Shown in pieces: positions 34,658 through 50,534 of a stretch of 64,000 bases of DNA. The notes under the pieces were generated by a model. The model saw only the letters and a program-made list of their open reading frames with translations, was not told the DNA's origin and searched no databases. Each line of letters opens with the position of its first letter. The stretch's first letter is position 1. Location of the stretch: the NCBI GenBank assembly GCA_017520935.1, contig JAFXEF010000013.1, positions 62,001 to 126,000 on the forward strand, given 5' to 3'. Source of the stretch: Bacteroidaceae bacterium (lineage in GTDB: Bacteria > Bacteroidota > Bacteroidia > Bacteroidales > Bacteroidaceae). Both the position numbers and the translations under genes were made by a program.

Positions 34658-34868
34658 TTTGTCCTGTGTGTTTGTTTTGACTGGGACAAAATAAATGACA
34701 ATGCACGAAATCGAAAAAGTTAAATATCGAAAACTTTAGTTTTTCTTCCGTTTTTAACATTTATTCTTAGAAATAGTAGGGTAAGGGAGGGAAGGAGATT
34801 CCCCTTTAGCGGTCTACTACCCTCTTTCCGCCCACATTGAAATGTTGTTTCTACACGACATATTTTAT

Positions 34869-34952
34869 ATCCCAAGGCTTGGTATGTATATACCAAGCCT
34901 TGGGATGTACGTACCAAACCTTGGGATATACATACCAAAGCTTGGGATATAA
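34869..34952. repeat. Array of four 21-bp palindromic units (CCAAG/CTTGG type)
   Basis: Units are at 34869-34889, 34890-34910, 34911-34931 and 34932-34952 with no spacers. Each centres on CCAAgcCTTGG or a close variant, so each unit is itself a near palindrome. The first is in the opposite orientation to the other three. Unit junctions read TAC-GTA or TAT-ATA. Outside the array, AAATGTTGTTTCTACAC (34840-34856) is an imperfect inverted copy of GTGCAGAAAAAACAATTT (34961-34978). Function unknown; compare the array at 49301-49384. Confidence 0.9.
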
Positions 34953-35060
34953 AAGAACTGGTGCAGAAAAAACAATTTCCTCCCGTGAAACATTCATACT
35001 TGTATTGTTTAACAGAAAGGGTTGCCTCAGACAAGGAATACACTATCTTTGCAATATATT

Positions 35061-35205
35061 GCGAAGATAGGATGCGCTCGTTGAAAATAAAGCAAGCTTT
35101 ATTCACTCGCTTTCACTATCTTTGCAACAATAAAAGCGAAGATAGGATGCGCTCGTTGAAAATAAAGCAAGCTTTATTCACTCGCTTTCACTATCTTTGC
35201 AACAA
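35061..35205 (+). repeat. Exact 70-bp tandem repeat containing promoter-like boxes
   Basis: Bases 35061-35130 and 35136-35205 are identical and separated by 5 bp. Each copy is an imperfect long palindrome: GCGAAGATAG at the start against CTATCTTTGC near the end, and AATAAAGC/GCTTTATT at the centre. Each carries TATCTTTG (35117-35124, 35192-35199), a -7 box pointing to the gene at 35217. A partial third copy of that box, TATCTTTGCAA, lies at 35044-35054. The last box is 17 bp before the ATG. Confidence 0.92.
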
Positions 35206-35216
35206 GAACACACATA

Positions 35217-37304
35217 ATGGCAAAGATACACACTTCGCTTAGGCACACAGTGCTCCTATGTATACTGATGCTCTGCTCACTACCCACCACAGCGCAGTTT
35301 CTCTCGTGGGACGACTTCGTGGAACAACTCTTCGTGGAGGCAGAGAGCGAGGGTGAGGAGGCGGCAGCGATGGCCGAGAATCTCTACGATGACTACGCCT
35401 ACCTGCACGCCCACCCCATCAATATCAACCGCGCCGACAGCACGGAACTGCAACGGCTGGGATTCCTCACTGACCGCCAGATAGAGGGCATACACTATTA
35501 TATATATAGGTATGGGACACTGCGCAGTGTGGGCGAACTGATGCTTATCCCCGAACTCGACTACCATACACGGCAGTTGTTGTCGTACTTTGTCACCTTC
35601 GGCGAGCCCGAAGAGAAAAGAGAGGATGCCCGCGACACGTGGCACCGCATGCTCACTGGAGGACGCAGCGAGCTCTCCTCACGACTCGACGTGCCTCTCT
35701 ACCGCCGCGCCGGCTATGCACCCCGCACACAAAGCCAACTCGAGACATCGCCCTCACGCTACTATATGGGCAACGCACTCTATCACAACCTACGCTACAC
35801 CTACCGCTACGACACACGCCTCTCGTGGGGTGTCAGCGCAGAAAAAGATGCAGGCGAACCCATCTTCACCCCCTCCGTGCCCCTACCCGACTACCTATCG
35901 GGCTACATACAATTGGGCGATATGGGCATACTCAAGAACCTTGTCGTGGGCAACTACCGCCTGCGCCTCGGGCAGGGACTGATACTCAACTCCGACTTTG
36001 CCCTCGGGAAAACGATGCTGCTGCAGGGACTGGGACGGCAAACGGCATCCATCAAGCCCCATCGCGGCACGGGCGAGGGCGACTACTACACCGGAGCTGC
36101 AGCCACCTTGGCATGGCATTCGTGGCAATTCACGGCCTTTGCCTCATACCGACGGCTCGATGCTACACTGGACGGAGCAGCCATCAGCACCCTGAAGACC
36201 GACGGCTATCACCGCACACCTACCGAACTGACACGACGCGGCAACACACGCGGTAACCTCTTCGGTGCTCACCTCGGACACAGTGCCCACGGGCTGCACG
36301 TGGGGCTGACAGTACTATATCAGTCATTCAACCGCCGCTTCGCCCCACCTACCCAAGCCTACAAGCGCTATGCTCCGCAAGGACACAGCTTCTTCAACGC
36401 CTCGGCCGACTATGCCTGGCACCACCATCGCCTGAGCATTACAGGCGAGACAGCGGTGGATGGCAAGGGCTCTATAGCCACTCTCAACATGATTCGCCTG
36501 AAAGCGACGGACGGTCTATACCTCACGCTACTGCAGCGCCACTACGCCCATGACTTCTGGGCATTGGAGGGAAAGAGTTTCTCCACCTCATCGGAAATCC
36601 GGGGTGAGCAGGGCATCTACCTCGGTACCGAGTGGCAACCCCATCGCCGTTTCGTGCTCACGGCATACGCCGACGCCTACCACTATCCCTACCTACGTTA
36701 CCGTGTAGCAGCGCCTTCGTACGGAACTGACGGTGTGGTCAATGCACGCTATACGATAAGCAATGGCCATACCCTGCAACTGCGCTACCGATTCCGTCTG
36801 AAGCAACGCGACGTGGTTGAAGGCTACCGCCTACTTGATGGTGCGCTGTTCAACGAGTGGACACACCGCTTGCGATTGCAATGGAACAGTACACTCACTC
36901 CCCTACTGACCTGCCAGGCACTGATTGAAGGATGCTTCGTACAGGCCGAAACACTCTCCATAGGCACGATGGCCAGCGCACAAGCCACCTACTCCCCCAC
37001 TCTCGGGCACCACGCCCTACGCCTCTCAGCCGGACTTACCGCCTTCCGTGCCGACTATGCTGCCCGTCTCTACGGCTACGAACGCGGCCTACTCTATGCC
37101 TATAACTACCAGATGTACTACGGCACTGGCCTGCGCGGCTACCTGTTGATACAATACAGCCACAAGGAAACCCCACGCCTCACCGCCACCGCCAAAGTCG
37201 GTGCTACACACTACCTTGACCGCAACACCATCGGTAGCGGAGCCACCATGATTGATGCCTGCCACCGCGAAGATGTGCAGCTACAGGTGCGCTACACGTT
37301 TTAG
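35217..37304 (+). CDS. Outer-membrane barrel-like protein with N-terminal helix-hairpin-helix domain
   Basis: 695 aa with a signal peptide (about 1-27, TTAQ). An acidic helical stretch (FVEQLFVEAESEGEEAAAMA) is followed by a ComEA-like helix-hairpin-helix region (about 66-125: ININRADSTELQRLGFL, then YGTLRSVGELMLIPEL). The remaining 550 residues are a run of amphipathic strands (for example LRYTYRYDTRLSWGVSAEKDAG) ending in VQLQVRYTF, as in an outer-membrane barrel. HhH domains usually bind DNA, so their presence in an exported protein is unusual. DNA handling at the cell surface is conceivable but unproven. Confidence 0.8.
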   Translation: MAKIHTSLRHTVLLCILMLCSLPTTAQFLSWDDFVEQLFVEAESEGEEAAAMAENLYDDYAYLHAHPININRADSTELQRLGFLTDRQIEGIHYYIYRYGTLRSVGELMLIPELDYHTRQLLSYFVTFGEPEEKREDARDTWHRMLTGGRSELSSRLDVPLYRRAGYAPRTQSQLETSPSRYYMGNALYHNLRYTYRYDTRLSWGVSAEKDAGEPIFTPSVPLPDYLSGYIQLGDMGILKNLVVGNYRLRLGQGLILNSDFALGKTMLLQGLGRQTASIKPHRGTGEGDYYTGAAATLAWHSWQFTAFASYRRLDATLDGAAISTLKTDGYHRTPTELTRRGNTRGNLFGAHLGHSAHGLHVGLTVLYQSFNRRFAPPTQAYKRYAPQGHSFFNASADYAWHHHRLSITGETAVDGKGSIATLNMIRLKATDGLYLTLLQRHYAHDFWALEGKSFSTSSEIRGEQGIYLGTEWQPHRRFVLTAYADAYHYPYLRYRVAAPSYGTDGVVNARYTISNGHTLQLRYRFRLKQRDVVEGYRLLDGALFNEWTHRLRLQWNSTLTPLLTCQALIEGCFVQAETLSIGTMASAQATYSPTLGHHALRLSAGLTAFRADYAARLYGYERGLLYAYNYQMYYGTGLRGYLLIQYSHKETPRLTATAKVGATHYLDRNTIGSGATMIDACHREDVQLQVRYTF

Positions 37305-47798: not shown

Positions 47799-49055
47799 TT
47801 ACTTCTGGCGACCAAAGATTACCTCATAGAGGTCAGCAGGGAGTTTCTTACGAATGCGCTCCTTACGCTTGCGGATAGTCGCCGTTGTGGTATTACCGAG
47901 ATGGGCAATGATAACATTGGAATAGCCGAGATAGACACCCAGTGCACAGATGAGCTCCTGATCATTAAATTCGCATTGCTCAATCAGCAGGCAACAGGCA
48001 CTGTTGAATGATTCGAGTAGGGCATGTTCCATCTCTTGAACAACCTCGTAAGTAATATCGGGGAGTACCCTCTCATTAACCTGCATGGTGAGGATGTCTG
48101 CATATACCGTGGTATGCTCAAAGACTTGACGCCCCTCAACCAGCATGCGGCAGAGCATCGGGGCCTTTGCTTCAGGAGCAGATTTATTATCGGTAGATCC
48201 CATAGCAGCGAGTGCCGCATTAGGTTCCTTAATCCGTTGTAGACGACGTTTCATCAAACTATAGATAAAGATACAGGCAACAAGCAATAGCAGGATAGTT
48301 ACAGTAGCATAGAGATGGCGATCCTGCATTCGGTTCTTGTGCTCGGCCTCTTCACGTATACGGTTTGCACGAATCTCCGCAAATGCACCGAACGCTTCTG
48401 CACCAGCCTGTATGTCGGGCGTGATGACATTCGTTTCCAACTTGCTTTTCAACTCATCCATCGTCATGGGTTCAAACATCCGGCTATCGCGTATGGCTAT
48501 GTGCTGCGATTTGTGCCGTTCGGCAGAGTCGGACATCTCGCGAACCTCGTAAATCTGCCACAACACATAATGACATACATACTCCACACCATCGTATCGT
48601 TCATGGGGAGCAGCCAACGCTTTGTAAGCATAATGCATAGCCGAGTCCAGCGCACCGAAGTGCCACAAGTCGTCAGCCTTATAGGCCAGACACATAGGGT
48701 AGCTGCTATGCTCGGGACCTACGAGTGCCATATATTGGTTAAGATATTGCAGAGCCAACTCATAGTTATGCTTCTCGTATGCCTCAATCCAGCGGAGAGT
48801 ATAGAGCGCATCGGCCCGTAGGGTGTCGTCAGCATCGGGGCGTACCACAATATTGGCAAAGTGGTATATGGCTCGGTCAAACATGGCTGTGCGATCTTTG
48901 CCGTCATCCGTATCGGTGCGACAAGCCTGTACGAAATGGCCGTGTGCCACACGTTGTTCCTCCACAGGAGAATACTGGGGCTTATTGCCCGAGGAGCTGC
49001 ATGCAACCAAGAAGCAGATGCAGGAGGTCAGTAGGAGAGATTGGACGGTTTTCAT
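47799..49055 (-). CDS. TPR lipoprotein-type membrane regulator with C-terminal HTH-like segment
   Basis: 418 aa from the ATG at 49053-49055; an upstream frame to 49211 is rejected because the lipoprotein signal (LVACSSSGN, C19) begins here. TPR-like helices occupy about 40-230. A single membrane helix (about 250-272, ATVTILLLLVACIFIYSL) is followed by basic residues (MKRRLQR) that keep the C-terminus in the cytoplasm. The end reads ELICALGVYLGYSNVIIAHLGNTTTATIRKRKERIRKKLP, which resembles a sigma-4 or LuxR-type helix-turn-helix with a basic recognition helix. It may sense something outside and bind DNA inside without a phosphorelay. Both a lipobox and a later membrane helix are present. Confidence 0.75.
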   Translation of the reverse strand: MKTVQSLLLTSCICFLVACSSSGNKPQYSPVEEQRVAHGHFVQACRTDTDDGKDRTAMFDRAIYHFANIVVRPDADDTLRADALYTLRWIEAYEKHNYELALQYLNQYMALVGPEHSSYPMCLAYKADDLWHFGALDSAMHYAYKALAAPHERYDGVEYVCHYVLWQIYEVREMSDSAERHKSQHIAIRDSRMFEPMTMDELKSKLETNVITPDIQAGAEAFGAFAEIRANRIREEAEHKNRMQDRHLYATVTILLLLVACIFIYSLMKRRLQRIKEPNAALAAMGSTDNKSAPEAKAPMLCRMLVEGRQVFEHTTVYADILTMQVNERVLPDITYEVVQEMEHALLESFNSACCLLIEQCEFNDQELICALGVYLGYSNVIIAHLGNTTTATIRKRKERIRKKLPADLYEVIFGRQK

Positions 49056-49078: not shown

Positions 49079-49109
49079 CAAAATTAGCAATCTTATCGTT
49101 CTCTCCAAA
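49079..49109 (-). promoter_or_regulatory. Promoter of the TPR/HTH membrane protein gene
   Basis: On the minus strand TTTG (49106-49109), 19 bp, TAATTTTG (49079-49086). Leader about 20 nt to the ATG at 49055, which confirms the chosen start. Confidence 0.75.
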
Positions 49110-49300
49110 AAATTGCGTGTGACAAATATGTGACAAAAGTGTGACATCGCCAAAGTAACATAAATAAGCGAAATAGAAAAAACGGTTGAAGCACGTAATC
49201 ATCATCAACAATCCCCATAGAAAGAAATAATTTATATCCTCTATTAGGTAAAAGTTCTTGCATCTGTCTTATAAACCCCCTGTCTTCTGTTACATAAAGA

Positions 49301-49384
49301 TTAATCATAAGTTGTGATTAGGTAATCATAAGTTCTGATTACGTAATCATAAGTTGTAATTACCTAATCACAAGTTATGATTTG
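49301..49384. repeat. Array of four 21-bp palindromic units (GTAATCA/TGATTAC type)
   Basis: Units are at 49301-49321, 49322-49342, 49343-49363 and 49364-49384 without spacers. Unit 2 has perfect 7-bp arms, GTAATCA and TGATTAC, around TAAGTTC; the others have one mismatch per arm pair and a 7-bp centre of the same type. Same unit length, unit number and palindromic design as 34869-34952 but unrelated sequence. Confidence 0.9.
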
Positions 49385-49526
49385 ACTTTATATGATAGTC
49401 CTTGCATCTTTTCCCTAAGAGAAGATTCCTTTTTTATCTAACAGGCGTTAAAATAAATAAACAGCAGCATACTGTGGCTACTACGCGAGTAAAAAGTAAA
49501 GATCTGCTGGATTTTTACCGCTAATG

Positions 49527-49558
49527 TTTGGTAATGCTGTACGAATCTTGTACTTTTG
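49527..49558 (+). promoter_or_regulatory. Promoter of the DNA methyltransferase gene
   Basis: TTTG (49527-49530), 20 bp, TACTTTTG (49551-49558). The ATG follows 19 bp later, giving a short leader. Confidence 0.82.
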
Positions 49559-49577: not shown

Positions 49578-50534
49578 ATGGACAAACAGCGAGCAGGCCG
49601 TAACCGGACAATAACCATTACTGCGGAGGAACGCAGTGAACTGAAGAAGGGGATTGCAACCGCGCAGTCTTTCGATACCGTTCGGTGGAAAGATACCATC
49701 GTATGTGCCGACCTGCTCAGCATCATCGACCGCATTCCCGACGGCGTGGCCGACCTCATCATCATTGACCCGCCATACAATCTTTCGAAAGACTTTAACG
49801 GACTGGCTTTTTCGGCCATTTCATCGGAGAAATATGCCGATTATCTGCGTTCGTGGTTCCATAAGGTATGCGACAAGCTGAAACCTAACGGTTCGCTCTA
49901 TATGTGTGGCGACTGGAAGTGCACATCAACCCTGCAAGCAGTAATTGAGGAGCGGCTCACCATCATCAACCGCATCACATGGCAGCGCGAGAAGGGACGC
50001 GGTGCACGGGCAAATTGGAAGAACTGTATGGAGGATATCTGGTTTGCTGTGAACAATCCCCACGACTACTATTTCGATGTGGAAAGCGTCAAGATAAAGC
50101 GTCATGTACGGGCACCCTATAAGGTGGGTGGCCAGCCGAAGGATTGGGAGGCCACAGAAGAGGGCAACTACCGCCTCACCTACCCGTCGAACTTCTGGGA
50201 CGATATCAGCATCCCCTTTTGGTCAATGCCCGAGAACACCGACCACCCCACACAGAAACCCGAGAAACTGTATGCCAAGCTTATCTTGGCCTCGTCATGC
50301 GAAGGCGATGTTGTCCTCGACCCCTTTATGGGCAGCGGAACAGCTGCTGTAGTAGCCAAGAAACTTAGGCGCAAGTATCTGGGCATCGAGATCAACGAAG
50401 AGTACTGCCTATGGGCTGCCAAACGTCTGAGGATGGCCGATGAAAACGCCGAAATTCAAGGCTACACCGATGGTGTCTTCTGGGAGCGTAACAGCCAAAA
50501 TAAGCAGATAAAGGGGCATAAGAATTCAGGCTGA
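49578..50534 (+). CDS. Orphan beta-class DNA methyltransferase (N6-adenine or N4-cytosine)
   Basis: 318 aa. Catalytic motif IV is DPPYNLSKDF (D64-Y67). The target-recognition region lies between about 110 and 215. The SAM-binding motif DPFMGSGT (D248 onward) comes last, so the order is IV-TRD-I, the beta class. The DPPY motif favours N6-adenine methylation. The basic N-terminus (MDKQRAGRNRTITITAEER) could contact DNA. No restriction endonuclease or specificity subunit is encoded nearby, so it is a solitary regulator or host-protection enzyme. Its stop codon is 2 bp from that of the convergent rhamnose mutarotase gene. Confidence 0.9.
   Translation: MDKQRAGRNRTITITAEERSELKKGIATAQSFDTVRWKDTIVCADLLSIIDRIPDGVADLIIIDPPYNLSKDFNGLAFSAISSEKYADYLRSWFHKVCDKLKPNGSLYMCGDWKCTSTLQAVIEERLTIINRITWQREKGRGARANWKNCMEDIWFAVNNPHDYYFDVESVKIKRHVRAPYKVGGQPKDWEATEEGNYRLTYPSNFWDDISIPFWSMPENTDHPTQKPEKLYAKLILASSCEGDVVLDPFMGSGTAAVVAKKLRRKYLGIEINEEYCLWAAKRLRMADENAEIQGYTDGVFWERNSQNKQIKGHKNSG

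Follow-up and report, generated by a model that had tools for sequence, protein, structure and literature searches.

Tandem operators of the ArgR type consist of palindromic boxes centred ∼21 bp apart, which lie on one face of the helix and are bound cooperatively. Pneumococcal BOX elements have a modular layout, with a repeated internal unit flanked by distinct ends. BrickBuilt, a MITE of Porphyromonas gingivalis, relies on a 23-nt unit present in 1 to ∼23 copies and has ends that match the inverted repeats of an insertion sequence (IS); ∼19 copies of the element occur in the genome (PMC4596501). PINSR, found in Prevotella intermedia and P. nigrescens, is a 188-bp repeat without terminal inverted repeats that forms a single family of ∼180 copies (PMC4755523). 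Multi-family palindromic arrays with a spacing of two helical turns did not appear in a literature search that was thin on subscription journals, which is weak evidence of novelty.

Such an array occurs in the window, i.e. the whole stretch of 64,000 nt of DNA from a Bacteroidaceae bacterium that was analysed. Four 19-bp palindromes (49302-49320, 49323-49341, 49344-49362 and 49365-49383, plus strand) constitute an array at 49302..49383 with a period of exactly 21 bp, the consensus of the unit being TAATCANAASTTNTGATTA followed by a 2-bp linker. This array, the window copy of what is named here family A, had been noticed in a first-pass annotation, and it stands far above chance: its architecture score, which combines tandem similarity and dyad symmetry, reaches Z=12.2, against a maximum of 6.0 when the local 700 bp was Markov-shuffled 300 times. 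The GTAATCA/TGATTAC units do repeat four times, as described then, but are not exact in every unit, unit 1 starting with ATTAATCA and unit 4 ending with TGATTT. In alignments, the left flank (49257..49301, plus strand) shows degenerate similarity to other copies, with a mean identity of 57% over the nearest 30 bp and 37% further out, and the right flank (49384..49451, plus strand) is common to most copies, with 76% identity over the nearest 28 bp and 55% over the next 32.

The array is located between two divergent genes, in agreement with the first-pass annotation. On its 5′ side, an ORF for a TPR/HTH-type membrane protein or lipoprotein covers 47799..49055 on the minus strand (its start is probably the ATG at 49055; the mechanical ORF extends to 49211) and has no match in a Pfam search. 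On the other side, a DNA methyltransferase-like ORF with a DPPYN motif covers 49578..50534 on the plus strand, with orthologues 78–86% identical in seven congeners. A promoter of the methyltransferase (TTTG, 20 bp, TACTTTTG; 49527..49558, plus strand), which we take to follow the Bacteroidetes consensus, was assigned from sequence and alignment. It lies ∼144 bp from the array and is conserved in aligned relatives devoid of the array; the array is thus not required by this promoter. A candidate promoter of the TPR ORF, also of Bacteroidetes type (TTTG, 19 bp, TAATTTTG; 49079..49109, minus strand) and read from the letters, lies ∼193 bp from the array.

The array sequences had been thought to be locus specific, an idea refuted by the genome itself, where each is common to 10–30 loci. 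In the 2.89 Mb (64 contigs) of this genome, the family A unit, with ≤3 mismatches, has 42 matches per strand (none for the reversed control), which group into ∼10 arrays. Four-unit arrays occur on contigs C5, C10, C25, C33, C34, C38, C49 (the window) and C54, two-unit arrays on C14 and C40, and a one-unit remnant at C38:34324, next to a Dus gene. In several copies, four distinguishable units follow one another in the same order at different loci, and similarity extends beyond the array over ∼45 bp on the left and ∼68 bp on the right. The preserved unit order and flanks indicate that whole elements were copied, with no separate origin per locus. Family A is therefore a short (∼195 bp) non-coding interspersed element with the array as its core.

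The other array noticed in the window, at 34869..34948 (plus strand), indeed has the same 4 × 21 bp architecture with an unrelated sequence, and belongs to family B. Its four units of ATCCCAAGNCTTGGTAT, each followed by a 4-bp linker, are enclosed by inverted flanks (34844..34868 and 34949..34973, plus strand) that are ∼68% complementary. Mechanical ORF calls do not place it between divergent genes, as had been claimed, and divergent placement is not general among copies of the arrays. Family B occupies ∼15 loci of the genome, mostly with four units, and arrays lie at the ends of contigs C20, C28, C35, C46, C60 and C63; these repeats probably break the assembly, so that the count is a minimum. 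Directly 3′ of the window copy, at 35038-35230, a 75-bp unit is tandemly repeated (2.2 copies, 94% identical), with a promoter-like CACTATCTTTGCAA in each copy. Family C, its three units based on ATTCCAAGACTGGCAAT and ATTCCAAGNCTTGGAAT, occupies ∼30 loci; its ends are sharp (TTCTAT ... CTTTTATCGAGG) and the sequences outside are unrelated between copies. All three families (A, B and C) have a period of exactly 21 bp, and their arrays contain 2–4 units. The units abut with linkers of 2–4 bp and without unique spacers, which dismisses CRISPR arrays.

Families A, B and C hardly occur outside this species. Among 18 congeneric genomes they are absent, except for one A locus and one C locus in genome G013. 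The two G013 contigs concerned (L088 = C129 and L264 = C6) are 97–98% identical to the genome studied here, compared with 80–89% for other G013 loci, and this unusual similarity probably reflects a recent transfer or a contaminated bin. When the pattern was sought in another genome collection, only the same G013 contig matched, from a goat-caecum Bacteroidaceae MAG. Viral contigs contain no exact match to the two-unit pattern, and a phage origin was rejected on this basis. At orthologous gaps of relatives, the family A array is absent; at the C14 locus, for example, relatives have no element and one gap measures ∼120 bp versus ∼510 bp, with flanks too diverged to define the junction.

Further families of palindromic arrays, with a period of 22 or 23 bp, are present in this genome and its relatives. 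A 22-bp family of four to five units (ATCCRCGGATATTTCATTACGT) occurs in congeners G013 (L163:1193-1304) and G014 (L148:8600-8700). The five-unit G013 array comes after a gene whose orthologue in the present genome precedes the family A array of contig C10. Orthologous replacement by a different array was considered for this case and rejected: it is a single one and the background density in the scanned loci predicts ∼2 such matches, so that it is not counted. A 4 × 21 bp family with AAATCATAAGC half-sites, which resemble those of family A, is shared by this genome and congener G001 (L052:3960-4060 and L146:8990-9100). Another 22-bp family (TTTCATCGCGATGAAA) spans distant congeners, with copies at L119, L122, L123, L132 and L135 of this genome and at L239:2535-2622 of G008. 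A 23-bp family (GACCTATAGATGATAAAATTTA; L122:11216-11281 and L135:17990-18055) lies also downstream of many family C copies, often following these elements to give composite repeats. The flanks of family B resemble one unit of the TTTCATCGCGATGAAA family, so that the elements resemble modular mosaics. As in the REP/BIME type, they are dispersed extragenic palindromes that form mosaics.

The first-pass annotation had argued that architecture, rather than sequence, is what matters. This is supported by a sequence-blind scan, in which each position was scored for tandem similarity (periods 12–45) and dyad symmetry in 464 kb of this genome and 599 kb from six congeneric genomes. In this genome, 16 of the 17 non-coding matches have periods of 21–23 bp; they represent roughly nine or ten sequence families, one of which has a different period, and matches within one genome are not independent, since families repeat, which qualifies the nominal binomial values. 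In congeners, 9/16 non-coding matches fall at 21–22 bp and four more at 42 or 44, and in more distant Bacteroidales 9/13 fall at 21–23 bp (4/7 in other genera, 5/6 in other families), many of these order-level matches having weak dyads. No match was returned by 928 kb of Markov null sequence or by 200 kb of Escherichia coli. Planted arrays were detected equally well for periods from 19 to 40 bp; the peak at 21–23 bp is thus no artefact of detection. Unrelated non-coding palindromic arrays therefore cluster at one spacing, with periods of 21–23 bp and 2–5 units elsewhere, and the varied periods and unit counts that would have reduced the resemblance of the two window arrays to chance are largely not seen. 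Between species, a comparison proposed in the first-pass annotation, array sequences turn over and the clustering persists. That unrelated families keep a spacing of two helical turns suggests a requirement for this spacing as such, most probably imposed by protein binding. Family F and most order-level matches have a period of 23 bp or weak dyads, which loosens the argument from exact helical phase.

Within units, conservation is uneven. Between copies, the 12 core positions average 99% identity and the centre and linker positions 58%. Units thus consist of a symmetric invariant core with a variable centre and variable linkers, and the invariance of the core could partly reflect recent spread, the copies being few and related.

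Collectively, these features are best accounted for by mosaic repeats of BIME/MITE type, copied whole, with phased dyads to which a dimeric protein would bind in duplex form, a reading to which we give about an even chance. Each family (A, B, C and others) is a modular repeat dispersed by whole-element copying, and active mobility of the elements is presumed. A dimeric protein would bind each dyad and, as 21–23 bp correspond to about two helical turns, may polymerize cooperatively along one face of the DNA. Reading by this protein would select the spacing and the core, with sequences replaced lineage by lineage. The reader, and the effect of its binding, may belong either to the mobilization of the element, through an enzyme of its own, or to the host, through a nucleoid or regulatory protein; since placement follows no single kind of gene, we lean slightly towards mobilization. 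Searches yielded neither a binding protein nor a transposase nor an autonomous partner, which counts against the reading. In particular, a Pfam survey of the genes beside A and B arrays, and the ORFs nearest to relatives' arrays, gave no candidate for a recurring reader or mobilizer, and a shared neighbour gene in this role is rejected, as no gene recurs.

It is tempting to propose a broader system, in which phased palindromic arrays extend throughout the Bacteroidales as unrelated families, each with its own fast-evolving dimeric reader; the two-turn spacing would be conserved and the sequence replaced in a co-evolving selfish or chromosome-organizing system. This extension is tentative and of rather low probability. 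Should spacing be conserved despite sequence turnover, searches by architecture will reveal a class of elements that escape homology searches; a set of paired DNA-binding proteins is then to be expected, and helical phasing can be tested cleanly. For Bacteroidales of the rumen and gut, the arrays can also serve as species-specific markers, and the several B copies at contig ends give a reason for contig breaks in such genomes.

The reading of phased dyads bound by a dimer has to be weighed against regulation of adjacent genes. According to this alternative, family A would mark a regulon, and tandem operators spaced by 21 bp would control the gene nearby. The symmetry of the conserved core is in favour of it, as is the position of several A arrays, 200–400 bp upstream of genes for secreted glycan- or mucin-active proteins (M60 peptidase, F5/8, Big_2). 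The full set of neighbours, with boundaries from mechanical ORFs and identities from Pfam, is more diverse. Family A adjoins genes that encode M60 peptidases, a sialidase-like protein and further secreted proteins, as well as the unrelated RecG, a PIF1-like helicase, the methyltransferase and metF; family B adjoins genes for MutS, a sulfatase, a GH84 enzyme and others. Neighbours, orientations and distances are thus mixed, where the operators of a regulon would show a fixed promoter position and related genes, and the candidate promoters in the window lie ∼144 and ∼193 bp from the array. About half of the family A copies are found between tandem genes and none between convergent ones, which would suit operators, but avoidance of convergent genes by A and B involves too few loci to carry weight, and family C copies can lie between convergent genes. 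The flanks common to copies are not needed by binding sites alone, and the array is missing from orthologous gaps. Control of a regulon is therefore unlikely.

Recognition as a single strand is more doubtful still. Here the array would fold into a long stem, as in REP, Correia or terminator-like elements, and function either within transcripts or as the end of a foldback transposon. The window array does fold to −46.5 kcal/mol (z = −8.95 as RNA, −8.0 as DNA) and the flanks of family B are inverted. However, such a stable fold is expected of any tandem of palindromes. Covariation is lacking in local and global pairs: the one variable within-unit pair, 7/13, is complementary in 6/36 cases versus 11.2 when shuffled, i.e. 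more rarely than by chance, and complementarity between arms is no higher within an array than between arrays, in family A (P = 0.68 and 0.97) or family B (P = 0.76 and 1.0). Compensatory pairing, by which the hairpin-maintained palindromes of REP/BIME elements are recognized, is thus absent. Six A, B and C loci have no match in Rfam at the gathering score, and an RNA or hairpin element was rejected on these two grounds. A search of the genome (G000, 86.8% complete) with PF01797 found no Y1 (RAYT) transposase, which dismisses REP sequences driven by RAYT. An invariant core without compensatory pairing suggests that duplex DNA is recognized, not RNA or a single-strand hairpin, in keeping with the preferred reading of phased dyads bound by a dimer.

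As a further alternative, the elements could be classical MITEs that stem from a DDE insertion sequence with terminal repeats that are, by coincidence, tandem palindromes. Size, intergenic placement and copy number fit, and so do the degenerate inverted flanks (∼68% complementary in B, ∼55% over 16 bp in A). The ends of family C are unlike, visual inspection of its junctions showed no target-site duplication, and a non-exhaustive search revealed no parent IS; this origin is accordingly improbable. Least probable of all are neutral products of slippage or hairpin-primed replication that happen to favour 21–23 bp, a process suggested in the first-pass annotation: unit number varies slightly (2–5) and two-unit copies resemble internal deletions, but loci have unit order and flanks in common, change is concentrated in centres and linkers, and the narrow period peak is left unexplained, detection power being flat.

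Whole-element copying of arrays read as duplex DNA thus remains the preferred account, and it sets these families beside several known systems. Like REP/BIME elements with RAYT (PMC2817692, PMC3733652), they are dispersed extragenic palindromes that form mosaics and change between species. They differ from them by the fixed two-turn spacing, by the lack of hairpin covariation and by a genome without Y1 transposase; the GTAG/CGTC tag is likewise absent from the A, B and C consensus sequences. Their internal repeated unit between distinct ends recalls pneumococcal BOX (PMC3049150), which, compared by layout, is one family with a longer unit. In contrast to ArgR-type operators, which serve one regulon, the families adjoin unrelated genes and share flanks. 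Like PINSR (PMC4755523), they are lineage specific, intergenic, non-coding and highly amplified, but PINSR is not described as a palindromic array. BrickBuilt (PMC4596501) is similar in being a dispersed intergenic Bacteroidales element with a short tandem unit, leader and tail flanks and a narrow host range. Families A, B and C are set apart from its description, with a period of 21 bp and 2–4 units in place of a 23-nt unit in variable number. Moreover, the units are palindromic, which those of BrickBuilt are not described to be, usually number four or three per array, and belong to several families of the same spacing in one genome.
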